Below, piece after piece: positions 33,646 through 62,088 of a stretch of DNA of 64,000 nucleotides (within the stretch, counting starts at the first letter, position 1; each line of letters starts with the position of its first letter). The translations under genes were made by a program, and so were the position numbers. The stretch spans positions 1,984,001 to 2,048,000 of the forward strand of contig NZ_CP042172.1 in assembly GCF_005937985.2 (NCBI RefSeq). The letters are read 5' to 3'. Under the pieces are notes generated by a model, which ran no database searches, was not told the origin of the DNA, and saw only the letters and a program-made list of their open reading frames with translations. Source of the DNA: Arthrobacter sp. KBS0702 (GTDB lineage: Bacteria > Actinomycetota > Actinomycetes > Actinomycetales > Micrococcaceae).

Positions 33646-34839
33646 TCAGGAACCCAGCTCCAGACGCCTGAACCGCAATTCGCGCTGGGCGCCGCGCAGC
33701 GGGGAGCCGCCAAAGGGCAGTTCCTCCAGGCGGATGGCCCCGGCGGCCGCGAGCGCGGTGCGGTTAGCCCCCGCCGCGGCCCGTGGCGGCAGCCCCAGCG
33801 TGTCAGCGAACTCTGCCCAGTGCCTGGCCTTCAGGTTTTTTGTTTTGCCGGCTACCGGCAGCGCCAGGGTCTCGTCCCCGTACAGCAAGGTGCACGGAAC
33901 GTCGTACACGGGGGCCATGACGAAGCCGCCGGAACCGCCCAGAACCGCCACGTTCTTCGCGTGGAGATCGCCGTTTCCGGTCAGCCACGCGAACAGGAAC
34001 TGCAGGTACAAATTGCGGCTGGCAACCAGCGGCGCCTTGCAAATCCCGGACAGGGCGGCGGCCACCTGCTCGGAGCTCACACCGTATTTGGAGGCCGGGG
34101 GAAGACCCAGGACCTGCGTGCCGTCCTCCAGCGGCAGCCGTTGCCACACGCCGTCGGCTGTCCTGACTCGGTCGAACCGTTCCACGAGAAGCCCGGGCAG
34201 GCCATTCCGGTCCGCGATGACGGAGCTTTTCGCGACGGGGATTTTCAGCGCCTTCGCACCGGCCAGATGGGCTGCCTCGTTTTCCACCAGATGGGGATGT
34301 TCCGGCGGATCCAGCTTCAGCAGGTAGCGGTGCCCGCGCAGGGCCAGCGGCGTCGTCAGCATGGAGGCGCTCGTCTTGCGCTGCACGCCGGGGATGCCGT
34401 GCAGGTCGACGGTGTTGGCAAGGAGGGAGAAATCCAGTTCCCCTGGCCGTGAGGTGTCGGCCAGGACCGCCGGCTCCGCCGGAGGTTCGCCGGCGGGCAC
34501 CACCTGGACGTCGCCGGGCACGTCGGACCCGACGGCGAGCAGCAGGGTCAACTCGTCGTCGAAACTGGTCTTGGTGGCGTTCTTCAGCACCGTGAGCCGG
34601 TGGCCCTCTGGGAGCAGACCGGCAAAGAAGGCGGGCAGCGCGCCGCCGGCGGCTTCCACCGCCGCCTCGGATAGCGGCAGCGACACCGCGACGGACGGGT
34701 GCCCGCCAGCGAGGTAGTCGGCGCGGTAGGAAAAACGCACTCCGCCCTGGCCGGTCCGGGCCAGTTGCCCGGCGAGCAGGCCGTTCTTGTAGACGTCGGC
34801 GGACCGGACGAAGCGAAGATCCTGCAGTTCGGCGGGCAT
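33646..34839 (-). CDS. hipA: HipA-like serine/threonine kinase toxin
   Basis: A 397-residue kinase of the HipA family. Members phosphorylate translation factors, such as glutamyl-tRNA synthetase, and cause growth arrest. The N-terminal subdomain has ADVYKNGLLAGQLARTGQGGVRFSY. The core has GIPGVQRKTSASM (nucleotide-binding loop), HRYLLKLDPPEHPHLVENEA, the catalytic GNGDLHAKNVAVL and metal motif YDVPCT. ATG 34839 overlaps the antitoxin stop by one base (TGATG), giving tight coupling. The likely targets and whether it is still active are unknown. Confidence 0.9.
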   Translation of the reverse strand: MPAELQDLRFVRSADVYKNGLLAGQLARTGQGGVRFSYRADYLAGGHPSVAVSLPLSEAAVEAAGGALPAFFAGLLPEGHRLTVLKNATKTSFDDELTLLLAVGSDVPGDVQVVPAGEPPAEPAVLADTSRPGELDFSLLANTVDLHGIPGVQRKTSASMLTTPLALRGHRYLLKLDPPEHPHLVENEAAHLAGAKALKIPVAKSSVIADRNGLPGLLVERFDRVRTADGVWQRLPLEDGTQVLGLPPASKYGVSSEQVAAALSGICKAPLVASRNLYLQFLFAWLTGNGDLHAKNVAVLGGSGGFVMAPVYDVPCTLLYGDETLALPVAGKTKNLKARHWAEFADTLGLPPRAAAGANRTALAAAGAIRLEELPFGGSPLRGAQRELRFRRLELGS

Positions 34840-35036
34840 CAGGCGACCGCGAGCTTCAGGCCCAGCACGTTCGCCACGGCCACCACGGCCTGGAGCGAGG
34901 GATTGCCGGTCCCGGTCTCGATGGCGCGAACGGTGCGCTCGGACGTGCCGGCCAGGTGTGCCAGGTCCTCCTGCGTCAGGCCGGCCTCCTTGCGGTTCCG
35001 GCGGATCCCTTCGGCAATCTCTGCCACATCGCCCAC
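34839..35036 (-). CDS. hipB: HipB-like HTH antitoxin
   Basis: A 65-residue Xre-type DNA-binding antitoxin: IRRNRKEAGLTQEDLAHLAGTSERTVRAIETGTGNPSLQAVVAVANVLGLKL covers the full HTH. I chose GTG 35036, which has GGAGGGGGAG upstream. The longer ATG at 35078 is unlikely because it overlaps the promoter's TATAAT hexamer and an operator and would lie upstream of the predicted transcript start. By analogy with other HipB proteins it should repress its own promoter together with HipA. Confidence 0.88.
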   Translation of the reverse strand: MGDVAEIAEGIRRNRKEAGLTQEDLAHLAGTSERTVRAIETGTGNPSLQAVVAVANVLGLKLAVA

Positions 35037-35071
35037 TGCACTCCCCCTCCAGACGGGTCCGCCGTCGTTGC

Positions 35072-35089
35072 CCGGCATTATATTGCCGG
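35072..35089 (-). promoter_or_regulatory. hipBA operator 1 enclosing the -10 box
   Basis: CCGGCA-TTATAT-TGCCGG is a perfect 6-bp inverted repeat with a 6-bp spacer. On the minus strand the spacer region contains TATAAT (35077-35082), a perfect -10. Transcription would start near 35070. A regulator bound here would block RNA polymerase directly. Confidence 0.75.
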
Positions 35090-35129
35090 TTCGGGCGGAA
35101 CGTTCCCCCTATGGTGCCGGATTTGTGGC

Positions 35130-35153
35130 GTTTCGGCAAGATACTGCCGAAAC
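35130..35153. promoter_or_regulatory. hipBA operator 2
   Basis: GTTTCGGCA-AGATAC-TGCCGAAAC is a perfect 9-bp inverted repeat with the same CGGCA-N6-TGCCG core as operator 1. Its centre lies 61 bp from that of operator 1. Confidence 0.75.
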
Positions 35154-35192
35154 CGTCGAATACGTTCGGAGCAGTCGCGTCCGCGGACCAAA

Positions 35193-35210
35193 CCGGCGCC
35201 ATGTTGCCGA
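35193..35210. promoter_or_regulatory. hipBA operator 3 (imperfect)
   Basis: CCGGCG-CCATGT-TGCCGA keeps the core arms and spacer length with one change (CGGCG for CGGCA). Its centre lies 60 bp from operator 2 and 80 bp before the divergent RibD/DHFR-like gene, which it might also influence. Confidence 0.55.
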
Positions 35211-35280
35211 TTGGGCTGCGGAAACTACCCTTCCTCCGAACCGTTTCCCCCACCGGGCATTCCGCGCGTAGGCTCGGCCC

Positions 35281-35838
35281 ATGCGGAAGATCATCCTTGC
35301 CCTGCAGGTCTCCCTGGACGGGTATATGGAAGGCCCCAACCGGGACATTGACTGGCACCTGGTGGACGACGAACTCCACGGCCACTTCAACGAGGAGCTC
35401 CGCACCATGGGTGCCTTCCTCGACGGCCGCATCACCTATGAGCTGATGGCCGCCTACTGGCCGACAGCGGACCGGGACCCCTCCAGCACGCCGGCCGAGG
35501 CCGAGTTCGCGGGGATCTGGCGGGAGATGCCCAAGATCGTCTACTCCAAAACCCTGGAGCGCGCCGATTGGAACACAACAGTGGCGCGCGAGGTCGTCGT
35601 CGAGGAGGTGCTGGAACTAAAGGCGCAGGCAGGCGGCGACCTGGCCTTGGGCGGCGCCCAACTGGCAGACAGCTTCCGCCGGCTCGGACTCATCGACGAA
35701 TACTGGATCTACATCCATCCGGTGCTGCTGGGGCGCGGCACACCGCTCTTCAAGCCCTCGGACAGCCGGACCGCGCTCACACTCGCCGAAACGAGGACGT
35801 TCGGCAACGGTGTGCTCCGGCTCCGCTACACCAGCTGA
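35281..35838 (+). CDS. RibD/dihydrofolate reductase-fold family protein
   Basis: A 185-residue protein of the RibD C-terminal/DHFR superfamily. It begins MRKIILALQVSLDGYMEGPN and ends with GGAQLADSFRRLGLIDEYWIYIHPVLLGRGTPLF, both hallmark blocks. The family binds NADPH, but most members have no known substrate. It is divergent from hipBA and shares the operator-bearing intergenic region. A strong terminator follows. Confidence 0.87.
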   Translation: MRKIILALQVSLDGYMEGPNRDIDWHLVDDELHGHFNEELRTMGAFLDGRITYELMAAYWPTADRDPSSTPAEAEFAGIWREMPKIVYSKTLERADWNTTVAREVVVEEVLELKAQAGGDLALGGAQLADSFRRLGLIDEYWIYIHPVLLGRGTPLFKPSDSRTALTLAETRTFGNGVLRLRYTS

Positions 35839-59886: not shown

Positions 59887-62088
59887 TCAGTTGTAGACCC
59901 GCACCCAGTCGACTTGCATCTGGCTCGGTTGCGTCGCGGTCCCGTCCGGGAACCAGTCCAACTGGATGGTTTGATGCATCCCAACAGTGGGCTGATGGGC
60001 CGGGTCCGTATCGGTAAACCACTGCACGCCGTCGATATAGCCGGTGATCCCGGCCGGGGTCCATTGAACCGCGTAATTGTGCCACTGGGTGGTATCGACC
60101 GGCTGGAAAGCCTGGGTCTGGAAGCTTGATCCGGTGCAGGCGTAGTGCAGGAAAAACTTGATCCTGGAAGTGTCGGTCGTTCCCTCGGCGTAATCAATCT
60201 CAGCGCAGTTCGGCGACGTGTTGTTATTCGGCCAGAGGATCAGGACCGGGTGGTACTTCGGGTCCCGGGCGCTGGTTCTCATCCGGGTTTCCCAGCGACC
60301 GTATTTCTGTTGGGCGAACTTGGCTGACATGCCGCCGGTCGTTCCGGCCGAGTCGCCGCTGACGGTGACGATGCTTCCGTCCACGGACCAGGCACCCGGG
60401 CTGCGGATCCCGTTTCCCGCGTGGCCTGGGCTGTTGTAGACACCCCACTTCAACGGGTCGGGGGCACCCGTGTAAGAGAATTCGTCCCCGGCCACCACCG
60501 GGCCCCAGCCGAAGACGACGGCGGCCTGCGTGCCGTCGGGTGATGGTTCGGGCTCGACGTTGATCGTGATCAGCGGCGTGACCGCGTCCGGGCTGACCCC
60601 GTTCGTCGCGGCGACCGTGAACGTCGAGGACCCGGCCGACGTCGGCGTACCGGACAACACCCCGGTCCCGGCGTCCAGGCTCAACCCCGCCGGCAGCGAC
60701 CCCGACACCACGCTAAAGGACGGCGCCGGGTTGCCGGACGCCGCAAAGGTGTAGCTGTAGGCGGTCCCCACCGTGGCGGTTGCCGGCGGCGTCGACGCCG
60801 TGAACACCGGGGCCGCCTGGGCGGCACTGACCGTGATGGTGCGTGCGGGCGTGACCGCGTCCGGGCTTACCCCGTTGGTCGCGGCGACCGTGAACGTCGA
60901 GGACCCCGCCGACGTCGGCGTACCGGACAACACCCCGGTGCCGGCGTTCAGGCTCAACCCCGCCGGCAGCGACCCCGACGCCACGCTAAAGGTCGGCGCC
61001 GGGTTGCCGGACGCCGCGAAGGTGTAGCTGTAGGCGGTCCCCACCGTGGCGGTCGCCGGCGGCGTCGACGCCGTGAACACCGGAGCCGCCTGGGCGGCAC
61101 TGACCGTGATGGTGCGTGCGGGCGTGACCGCGTCCGGACTCACCCCGTTCGTCGCGGCGACCGTGAACGTCGAGGACCCCGCCGACGTCGGCGTACCGGA
61201 CAACACCCCGGTCCCGGCGTTCAGGCTCAACCCCGCCGGCAAGGACCCCGACGCCACGCTAAAGGTCGGCGCCGGGTTGCCGGACGCCGCAAACGTGTAG
61301 CTGTAGGCAGTCCCCACCGTGGCGGTTGCCGGCGGCGTCGACGCCGTGAACACCGGAGCCGCCTGGGCGGGCCTGATCTCGATGAGAGACAAATTCCACC
61401 TGTCGTTCGTCGGGGCGGTGTCATTGATGCGTACCGTCGACGGCGCCGTGGCCGTGCCGGGCGCGGTTTGGCGCTGCGTCCAGAACGTGCCACCCGCGCC
61501 GGCGAGGAACTCGTCGACCTTGGTTTGGCCGGCTCCCACGGTACGGGCGACGGCCCGGCTCCAGTCATTGCCCGCACCCCACACCCAGGAACCGGTGCGG
61601 GTTGTCGTCAGGGAAGCGGTCGGCGCTCCAGTGGGGCCACTCGATCCCCCGACCGCCCCGTCCGTGGACGTGTCCGCGCCCGTGAAGGTGGCTACCGTGA
61701 TGGAGGCTTGGTATGACCCGTTGTGTGTTGCCGTCACTCGTGCGTTCGTGAGGAGGCTGCTCGACACCGCCTGCCAGATTTCGGCCGTCCCGTACTGGAC
61801 GTTGGTGCGTTTCCGCAGACGCCAGGTGAGCCCGCCGCCGGTGACGGAAGTGAATTGCTGGGACCTCGAGATGGCGGGGCCATCAGCGGTGACAAAGGCA
61901 ATCAATAATTCCTTGCTTTGACTGGTGGTAAAGGCAGGAGAGACGACTGACCGGGAAAAGGAGGACTGGTGCGCACTGACCACCTTGTCTGTCGCCAATC
62001 CCCCCGCCGCCTCAGCGGGTAGTGGAACCAGGCTGAAACCGATGATTGCGATAATCAGGACTAAACGGGCAGTGAACGGTCCACGCAT
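59887..62088 (-). CDS. Secreted GH16 glycoside hydrolase with three Ig-like repeats
   Basis: A 733-residue exported enzyme. A signal (LVLIIAIIGFSLVPLPAEA) precedes an N-terminal beta domain of about 210 residues. Three nearly identical 91-residue putative Ig (He_PIG-type) repeats occupy about 242-508 (APVFTASTPPATATVGTAYSYT each). A C-terminal GH16-like domain occupies about 516-733, with catalytic EIDYAE in SPNCAEIDYAEG. This domain is very close to that of the lipoprotein at 41577-42542. GGGGAATTC lies just before ATG 62088. It probably binds and degrades a polysaccharide. Confidence 0.9.
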   Translation of the reverse strand: MRGPFTARLVLIIAIIGFSLVPLPAEAAGGLATDKVVSAHQSSFSRSVVSPAFTTSQSKELLIAFVTADGPAISRSQQFTSVTGGGLTWRLRKRTNVQYGTAEIWQAVSSSLLTNARVTATHNGSYQASITVATFTGADTSTDGAVGGSSGPTGAPTASLTTTRTGSWVWGAGNDWSRAVARTVGAGQTKVDEFLAGAGGTFWTQRQTAPGTATAPSTVRINDTAPTNDRWNLSLIEIRPAQAAPVFTASTPPATATVGTAYSYTFAASGNPAPTFSVASGSLPAGLSLNAGTGVLSGTPTSAGSSTFTVAATNGVSPDAVTPARTITVSAAQAAPVFTASTPPATATVGTAYSYTFAASGNPAPTFSVASGSLPAGLSLNAGTGVLSGTPTSAGSSTFTVAATNGVSPDAVTPARTITVSAAQAAPVFTASTPPATATVGTAYSYTFAASGNPAPSFSVVSGSLPAGLSLDAGTGVLSGTPTSAGSSTFTVAATNGVSPDAVTPLITINVEPEPSPDGTQAAVVFGWGPVVAGDEFSYTGAPDPLKWGVYNSPGHAGNGIRSPGAWSVDGSIVTVSGDSAGTTGGMSAKFAQQKYGRWETRMRTSARDPKYHPVLILWPNNNTSPNCAEIDYAEGTTDTSRIKFFLHYACTGSSFQTQAFQPVDTTQWHNYAVQWTPAGITGYIDGVQWFTDTDPAHQPTVGMHQTIQLDWFPDGTATQPSQMQVDWVRVYN
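60565..61365. repeat. Three 273-bp tandem repeats in the GH16 gene
   Basis: Units 61093-61365, 60820-61092 and 60565-60819 (last one shorter) are nearly identical at DNA level, including third-codon positions. This indicates recent duplication or gene conversion within the gene. Confidence 0.9.

Follow-up and report, generated by a model that had tools for sequence, protein, structure and literature searches.

HipBA is a classic persistence module, and the only operator complexes we know of for it are those of E. coli. Work on that system (PMC3376134) describes cooperative binding of HipB to its operators and a HipA–HipB2–HipA complex that bends the operator by 70 degrees, and a second source (PMC6581861) has HipA dimerising via its N-terminal subdomain in DNA-bound complexes. 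In Legionella HipBST (PMC10653801), three evenly spaced inverted-repeat operators (O1–O3) lie upstream of a hip-type operon and are kept across species, and gel shifts there showed HipB binding to fragments that contain a complete site; even arrays of three sites are thus already known in kind. Here we examine a hipBA locus within a 64,000-nucleotide stretch of DNA (the window), where three palindromes stand at 60–61 bp spacing. The array is real and conserved: the original prediction was right in what it observed and partly right in the mechanism it attached to it.

Three palindromes upstream of hipBA

Three CGGCA-N6-TGCCG sites, one with a single change, had been predicted in the hipBA promoter, and all three are present, centred at 35080.5, 35141.5 and 35201.5 with spacings of 61 and 60 bp (Table 1). 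Operators 1 and 2 are the only exact copies in the window; with up to one mismatch allowed, the pattern occurs 20 times against 9.3 expected. Single exact sites number 43 genome-wide, so that the signal is the ladder, a lone site being unremarkable. Requiring at most one mismatch at every site and both spacings within 55–66 bp, we counted one triple in the window, against no triples and two pairs in 300 dinucleotide-preserving shuffles of it, and a genome scan found no second place for the pair pattern in the window's own genome. Across 81 non-redundant ladders, the consensus operator is CGGCARNATNYTGCCG, with A/T-rich flanks and a centre that is not free. Elsewhere in the window, a tandem array at 60575–61370 (273-bp unit, 2.9 copies, 96% matches) yields three one-mismatch copies of the pattern 273 bp apart, unrelated to the ladder.

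The genes behind the operators are arranged as in a hipBA type II toxin–antitoxin module, with an HTH_3 antitoxin gene directly upstream of, and overlapping, a HipA gene whose product joins N-terminal and kinase domains (Couple_hipA, HipA_C) in a single chain. HipB falls below the NCBI curated cut-off for Y4mF/couple_hipB TIGR03070 (68.2 versus 71.65 bits, E 4.5e-19). The hipB frame that opens at ATG 35078 probably overshoots the true start: homology starts at about residue 8–15 of that frame and a GGAGG precedes GTG 35036, which together place operator 1 upstream of hipB and not within the gene.

Since a sigma-70 and terminator scan of 34980–35320 returned neither a consensus promoter nor a terminator, the promoter layout proposed here is putative and draws on weak conservation among relatives. 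In the 81 ladders, the half of operator 2 that faces hipB reads TTGCCG and is followed, 17 bp on, by a hexamer of weak conservation whose second position is A and whose sixth is T; operator 1 comes after that hexamer, leads into a G-rich ribosome-binding region and keeps its place adjoining the ribosome-binding site. No conserved element was found between operators 3 and 2 in the same set. A TATAAT within operator 1 (minus strand) was set aside as a –10 candidate, as the centre of the site varies in relatives.

Table 1 Features of the hipBA operator region (window coordinates)
Feature	Position	Strand	Sequence	Remark
Operator 1, hipB-proximal	35073..35088	.	CGGCATTATATTGCCG	exact; in putative hipBA leader
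Operator 2	35134..35149	.	CGGCAAGATACTGCCG	exact; overlaps putative hipBA –35
Operator 3	35194..35209	.	CGGCGCCATGTTGCCG	1 mismatch; third rung kept in relatives
hipB, XRE-type antitoxin	34839..35036	-		65 aa from GTG; ORF from ATG 35078 is 79 aa
hipA, HipA-family kinase-like toxin	33646..34842	-		Couple_hipA and HipA_C domains
RBS-like motif	35046..35050	-	GGAGG	9 bases before GTG 35036; read from sequence
Putative hipBA –35	35134..35139	-	TTGCCG	place kept in relatives
Putative hipBA –10	35111..35116	-	CACCAT	17 bp from –35
Divergent RibD_C-domain gene	35281..35838	+		neighbour; array membership unsupported
–10-like motif	35269-35274	+	TAGGCT	six bases before RibD-like gene ATG

Conservation of the ladder

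We searched 295 genomes from the window's family for HipB homologues and took the best 70 matches (down to E 1.3e-10, window included); 49 of these loci bore at least two CGGCA-like rungs at 57–64 bp and 41 bore three, a few of these ladder loci being doubtful (L124) or having another motif (L139). A DNA-only scan of the GTDB species collection for two exact CGGCANNATNNTGCCG at any spacing of 54–66 bp gave 78 stretches, 73 of them bearing Actinomycetota names and the other five comprising three gut MAGs, one uncultured bacterium and one record named Sporosarcina (NZ_JADHDY010000007.1, named Sporosarcina beigongshangi, a name that may be wrong). Conservation of the spacing, the check by which the original prediction had offered to stand or fall, was borne out: although the whole range was allowed, 105 of the 110 exact pairs were spaced 60 (58) or 61 bp (47), the others 56 (1), 59 (1) and 62 bp (3). 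Three rungs were present in 58 stretches, two in 14, four in five and five in one, and the extra site of the four-rung chains carried two mismatches in four cases out of five. Over the 94 ladders of the class, spacing was 60 or 61 bp between operators 3 and 2 in 87 and between operators 2 and 1 in 88.

A HipB homologue was found in 64 of the 78 stretches, with HipA also in 61 of these. Among the 14 without one, four (L050, L074, L085 and L101) are cut off where the fetched DNA stops, and ten adjoin other genes, several within long open frames. A Pfam comparison of ladders lacking HipB or HipA (L068, L069, L076, L080, L082, L099, L107, L047 and L084) brought out no common neighbour. Two rungs 61 bp apart and no hipB directly behind characterise L107 (2768-2844, flanked by genes for an AHSA1-domain protein and a glycerate kinase), L099 (5705-5781, before a LigD-like gene) and L082 (3636-3712, past the 3′ end of a hipA); these may be remnants or second targets. 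L084 (3087-3283) combines a HipB homologue with four exact rungs at 60/60/61 bp, and L047 (3089-3165) likewise has a ladder and a HipB homologue; neither gave a HipA match in the fetched DNA.

Sampled broadly, the strict pair is rare: of 396 Actinomycetota genomes two have it, one being the window's own. A 61/60 ladder accompanies hipBA on two Arthrobacter plasmids, and none of eight non-actinobacterial plasmid hipA loci (L333-L340) had a three-rung 60/61 ladder, a fixed stretch having been searched in the three where the hipB start is unannotated.

Spacing, HipA clade and HipB recognition helix

Ladder detection was passed by 162 of 246 loci overall. Uniform ladders fell at 25.5–29 (34), 37–39 (13), 49 (1), 59.5–62 (92) and 23 bp (1), with 21 uneven, in a set where the 60 class is over-represented, many loci having been retrieved through it. 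In a tree of 122 non-redundant HipA (IQ-TREE quick, LG+G4), all 59 labelled 60-class rows fell within one 72-row group (SH-aLRT 100) that held no ladder of 26–28, 37–39 or 49 bp, those lying across one branch. For the 87 rows that have uniform ladders, spacing class needed one change on the tree, versus at least 18 (mean 23.9) in 100 label shuffles. The remaining 13 rows of the group comprised six with a pair at 59–61 bp, one with a pair at 72, one with 72/62/60 and five with no clear ladder or pair. Median HipA length from the profile start was 393 in the 60 class, versus 432 (26–28) and 429 (37–39), medians that include a few cut-off rows. The window's locus (L206/L005) has three rungs at 57–62 bp, and its HipA is assigned to the 72-row clade via the close relatives L006, L056 and L070, as its own row was redundant or not kept.

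A de novo detector of three similar palindromes, scored against shuffles with spacing free between 22 and 95 bp and neither motif nor spacing preset, was applied to loci anchored on HipA in two samples, one by class and one by order; 46 of the 246 genomes in the former and 63 of the 248 in the latter have the HipA N-terminal domain. It passed 41 of 133 loci: 26 at 25–30 bp, two at 37, ten at 60–62 (window included) and one each at 23/23, 29/69 and 72/62. Half-sites in the 60–62 group include CGGCA, CGGAA, CAGCACG, CCGCACG and GCTTGCG types, and more distant HipB have other palindromes at 60-class spacing (CGGAA, CCGAA, CTGCA and CCGCA types). Among family loci lacking a clean CGGCA ladder, we found CCGAA-N6-TTCGG at 60–61 bp (L134, L135, L137, L147), CTGCA sites at 60/60 (L139) and CGGAA-like sites at 59–61 (L115, L119, L131), and no ladder above shuffles in the others of that search. 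Three operators at 38–39 bp, several of TTATGCGAACGCATAA type, mark eight hipB-like loci from other Actinomycetota (L164, L165, L168, L170, L175, L176, L180 and L182). Palindromes that resemble the E. coli half-site (ATACC..GGTAT) occur in L172, L174, L177 and L179, in combinations of 31, 41–42 and 71–73 bp.

The operators had been attributed to HipB, an attribution now backed by co-occurrence with hipBA and by covariation with the HipB recognition helix. The E of TSERTVRAIE in that helix is replaced by D in 10 of 94 distinct HipB from 60-class loci, and position 4 of the half-site is A in all ten D-type cases versus 3 of the 84 others (Fisher p 3e-11, a value that overstates the covariation since kinship among HipB is ignored). 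From this tracking of the recognition helix by operator sequence we infer that the sites are read by HipB. The strongest new point is that spacing follows the HipA clade while operator sequence follows HipB.

Mean ladder spacing is 60.4 bp, which makes 5.76 turns if one turn takes 10.5 bp, and operator 3 mostly stands 120–122 bp (~11.5 turns) from operator 1, which puts the sites off one face of relaxed B-DNA. The predicted regular period holds and is conserved, and its corollary that bound dimers lie on one face would hold only if the DNA were overwound or bent; either the DNA is so deformed in the complex, we reason, or the complex winds round it. Spacing classes lie ~11 bp apart with departures at 72 bp in L126, L127, L200 and L162, which hints at steps of one helical turn. 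A universal 10.5-bp quantum was set aside and stays an idea only: over 63 ladders (related rows) the best period is ~11.4 bp (R 0.91, versus 0.73 at 10.5 bp), and pairs at 31, 41–43, 45 and 50 bp occur in other lineages.

A model of repression and known hip operator arrays

On balance we favour the view that these HipB operators form an autoregulatory hipBA array, on whose three sites HipB2–HipA2 represses cooperatively, with the complex of this HipA clade setting the spacing. Each palindrome would be read by one HipB dimer. Operator 2 would cover the putative –35, and operator 1 would fall after the putative start of transcription but ahead of the ribosome-binding site, positions at which occupancy is proposed to block initiation; operator 3, 60 bp further up and free of a conserved promoter element, most likely serves cooperativity. 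HipB2–HipA2 on adjacent operators may touch via HipA, with the intervening DNA bent or wrapped, and such contact would let the geometry of the HipA-bearing complex fix 60–61 bp and leave HipB free to alter the sequence that it prefers. Without HipB the array would come apart and the operon would be derepressed. Binding, HipA–HipA bridging, bending and repression are in this scheme our proposals, built on the observed sites, spacing, conservation, covariation and clade confinement; the cooperative HipB binding, operator bending and HipA dimerisation on DNA known from E. coli speak for them. The scheme is weakened by the lack of a consensus promoter in the region scanned, the non-integral number of turns, the rarity of the pair (2/396), the five of 72 clade HipA without a clear ladder or pair and the 0/8 non-actinobacterial plasmid loci with a three-rung 60/61 ladder; the covariation and spacing counts ignore kinship, and the way loci were gathered enriched the 60-class set.

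Three sites bound by HipB might also be occupied by complexes that never touch, the spacing having been inherited from an ancestral promoter and kept by promoter layout. That the class is one HipA clade makes a single origin possible, and operators 1 and 2 do keep a constant position with respect to the putative promoter; we nonetheless think this account unlikely, as the spacing between operators 3 and 2 is as tight as that between 2 and 1, though nothing is conserved between them, and stays while operator sequence changes. Far less probable still is a regulator other than HipB. Such palindromes can be bound by XRE-type and other regulators, and ten of the 78 stretches, all judgeable, have no hipB nearby; against this stand the covariation of operator and recognition helix, the hipB beside 64 of the 78 stretches and the pairing of ladder and hipBA at both Arthrobacter plasmid loci.

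The original prediction had also noted that the third site faces the divergent RibD-like gene; a role of the site there found no support, and we consider control of that gene by the array improbable. Such a gene lies close to the ladder in 9 of the 78 stretches (L040, L056, L070, L071, L073, L078, L088, L108 and L112) as well as in the window, and in L006 operator 3 adjoins its –10-like motif; the remaining stretches have no RibD-like gene, and in the window TAGGCT lies ~60 bp past operator 3. GCGTAGGCT occurs a few bases before the RibD-like ATG in the window (~60 bp beyond operator 3), L040, L056 and L070, and GCGTACGCT further up from the RibD-like start in L073, L088 and L108.

Returning to the cooperative hipBA array, we offer a bolder version only tentatively, with rather more doubt than belief: HipA could act as a molecular ruler, with each HipA clade having a toxin-bearing complex that dictates an operator distance of ~27, 38, 49, 60.5 or 72 bp. 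In the window's clade it would fold three operators and 120 bp of promoter DNA into one compact complex for repression that differs from the E. coli one, leaving HipB specificity free to change provided the ruler is kept; the clade classes of such a ruler would lie roughly one helical turn apart. Linking spacing to the toxin clade and sequence to the antitoxin tells their roles apart, and the series of 26–28, 37–39, 49 and 60–62 bp is a natural set for probing HipA–HipA contacts in repression. With nothing but sequence to go on, the ladder signature also picks out hipBA promoters and hints at the specificity of HipB.

Searches of open-access literature found no actinobacterial hipBA operator array, 60–61 bp rule, operator change at fixed spacing or link between spacing and HipA clade. 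The closest published array is that of Legionella HipBST, likewise with three evenly spaced palindromic operators. Its gaps are 53 bp (~71 bp centre-to-centre by our own arithmetic, with an 18-nt operator) versus 45 and 44 bp in the window, its operator sequence is another, and its HipA is split into HipS and HipT, whereas the window's is one chain. Shorter actinobacterial hipBA ladders (26–28, 37–39 and 49 bp) also place three regular palindromes upstream of hipB–hipA, but differ in period, palindromes, HipA length (432/429 versus 393) and side of the HipA tree. E. coli hipBA shares several palindromic HipB operators in the promoter, with cooperative binding (PMC3376134); its O1–O4 are four TATCCN8GGATA sites at 28/39/28 bp, in contrast to CGGCA-N6-TGCCG at 61/60 in the window—a HipB specificity distinct from that of E. 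coli, as had been predicted—and its 440-aa HipA lies on the opposite side of the HipA tree from the window's class.
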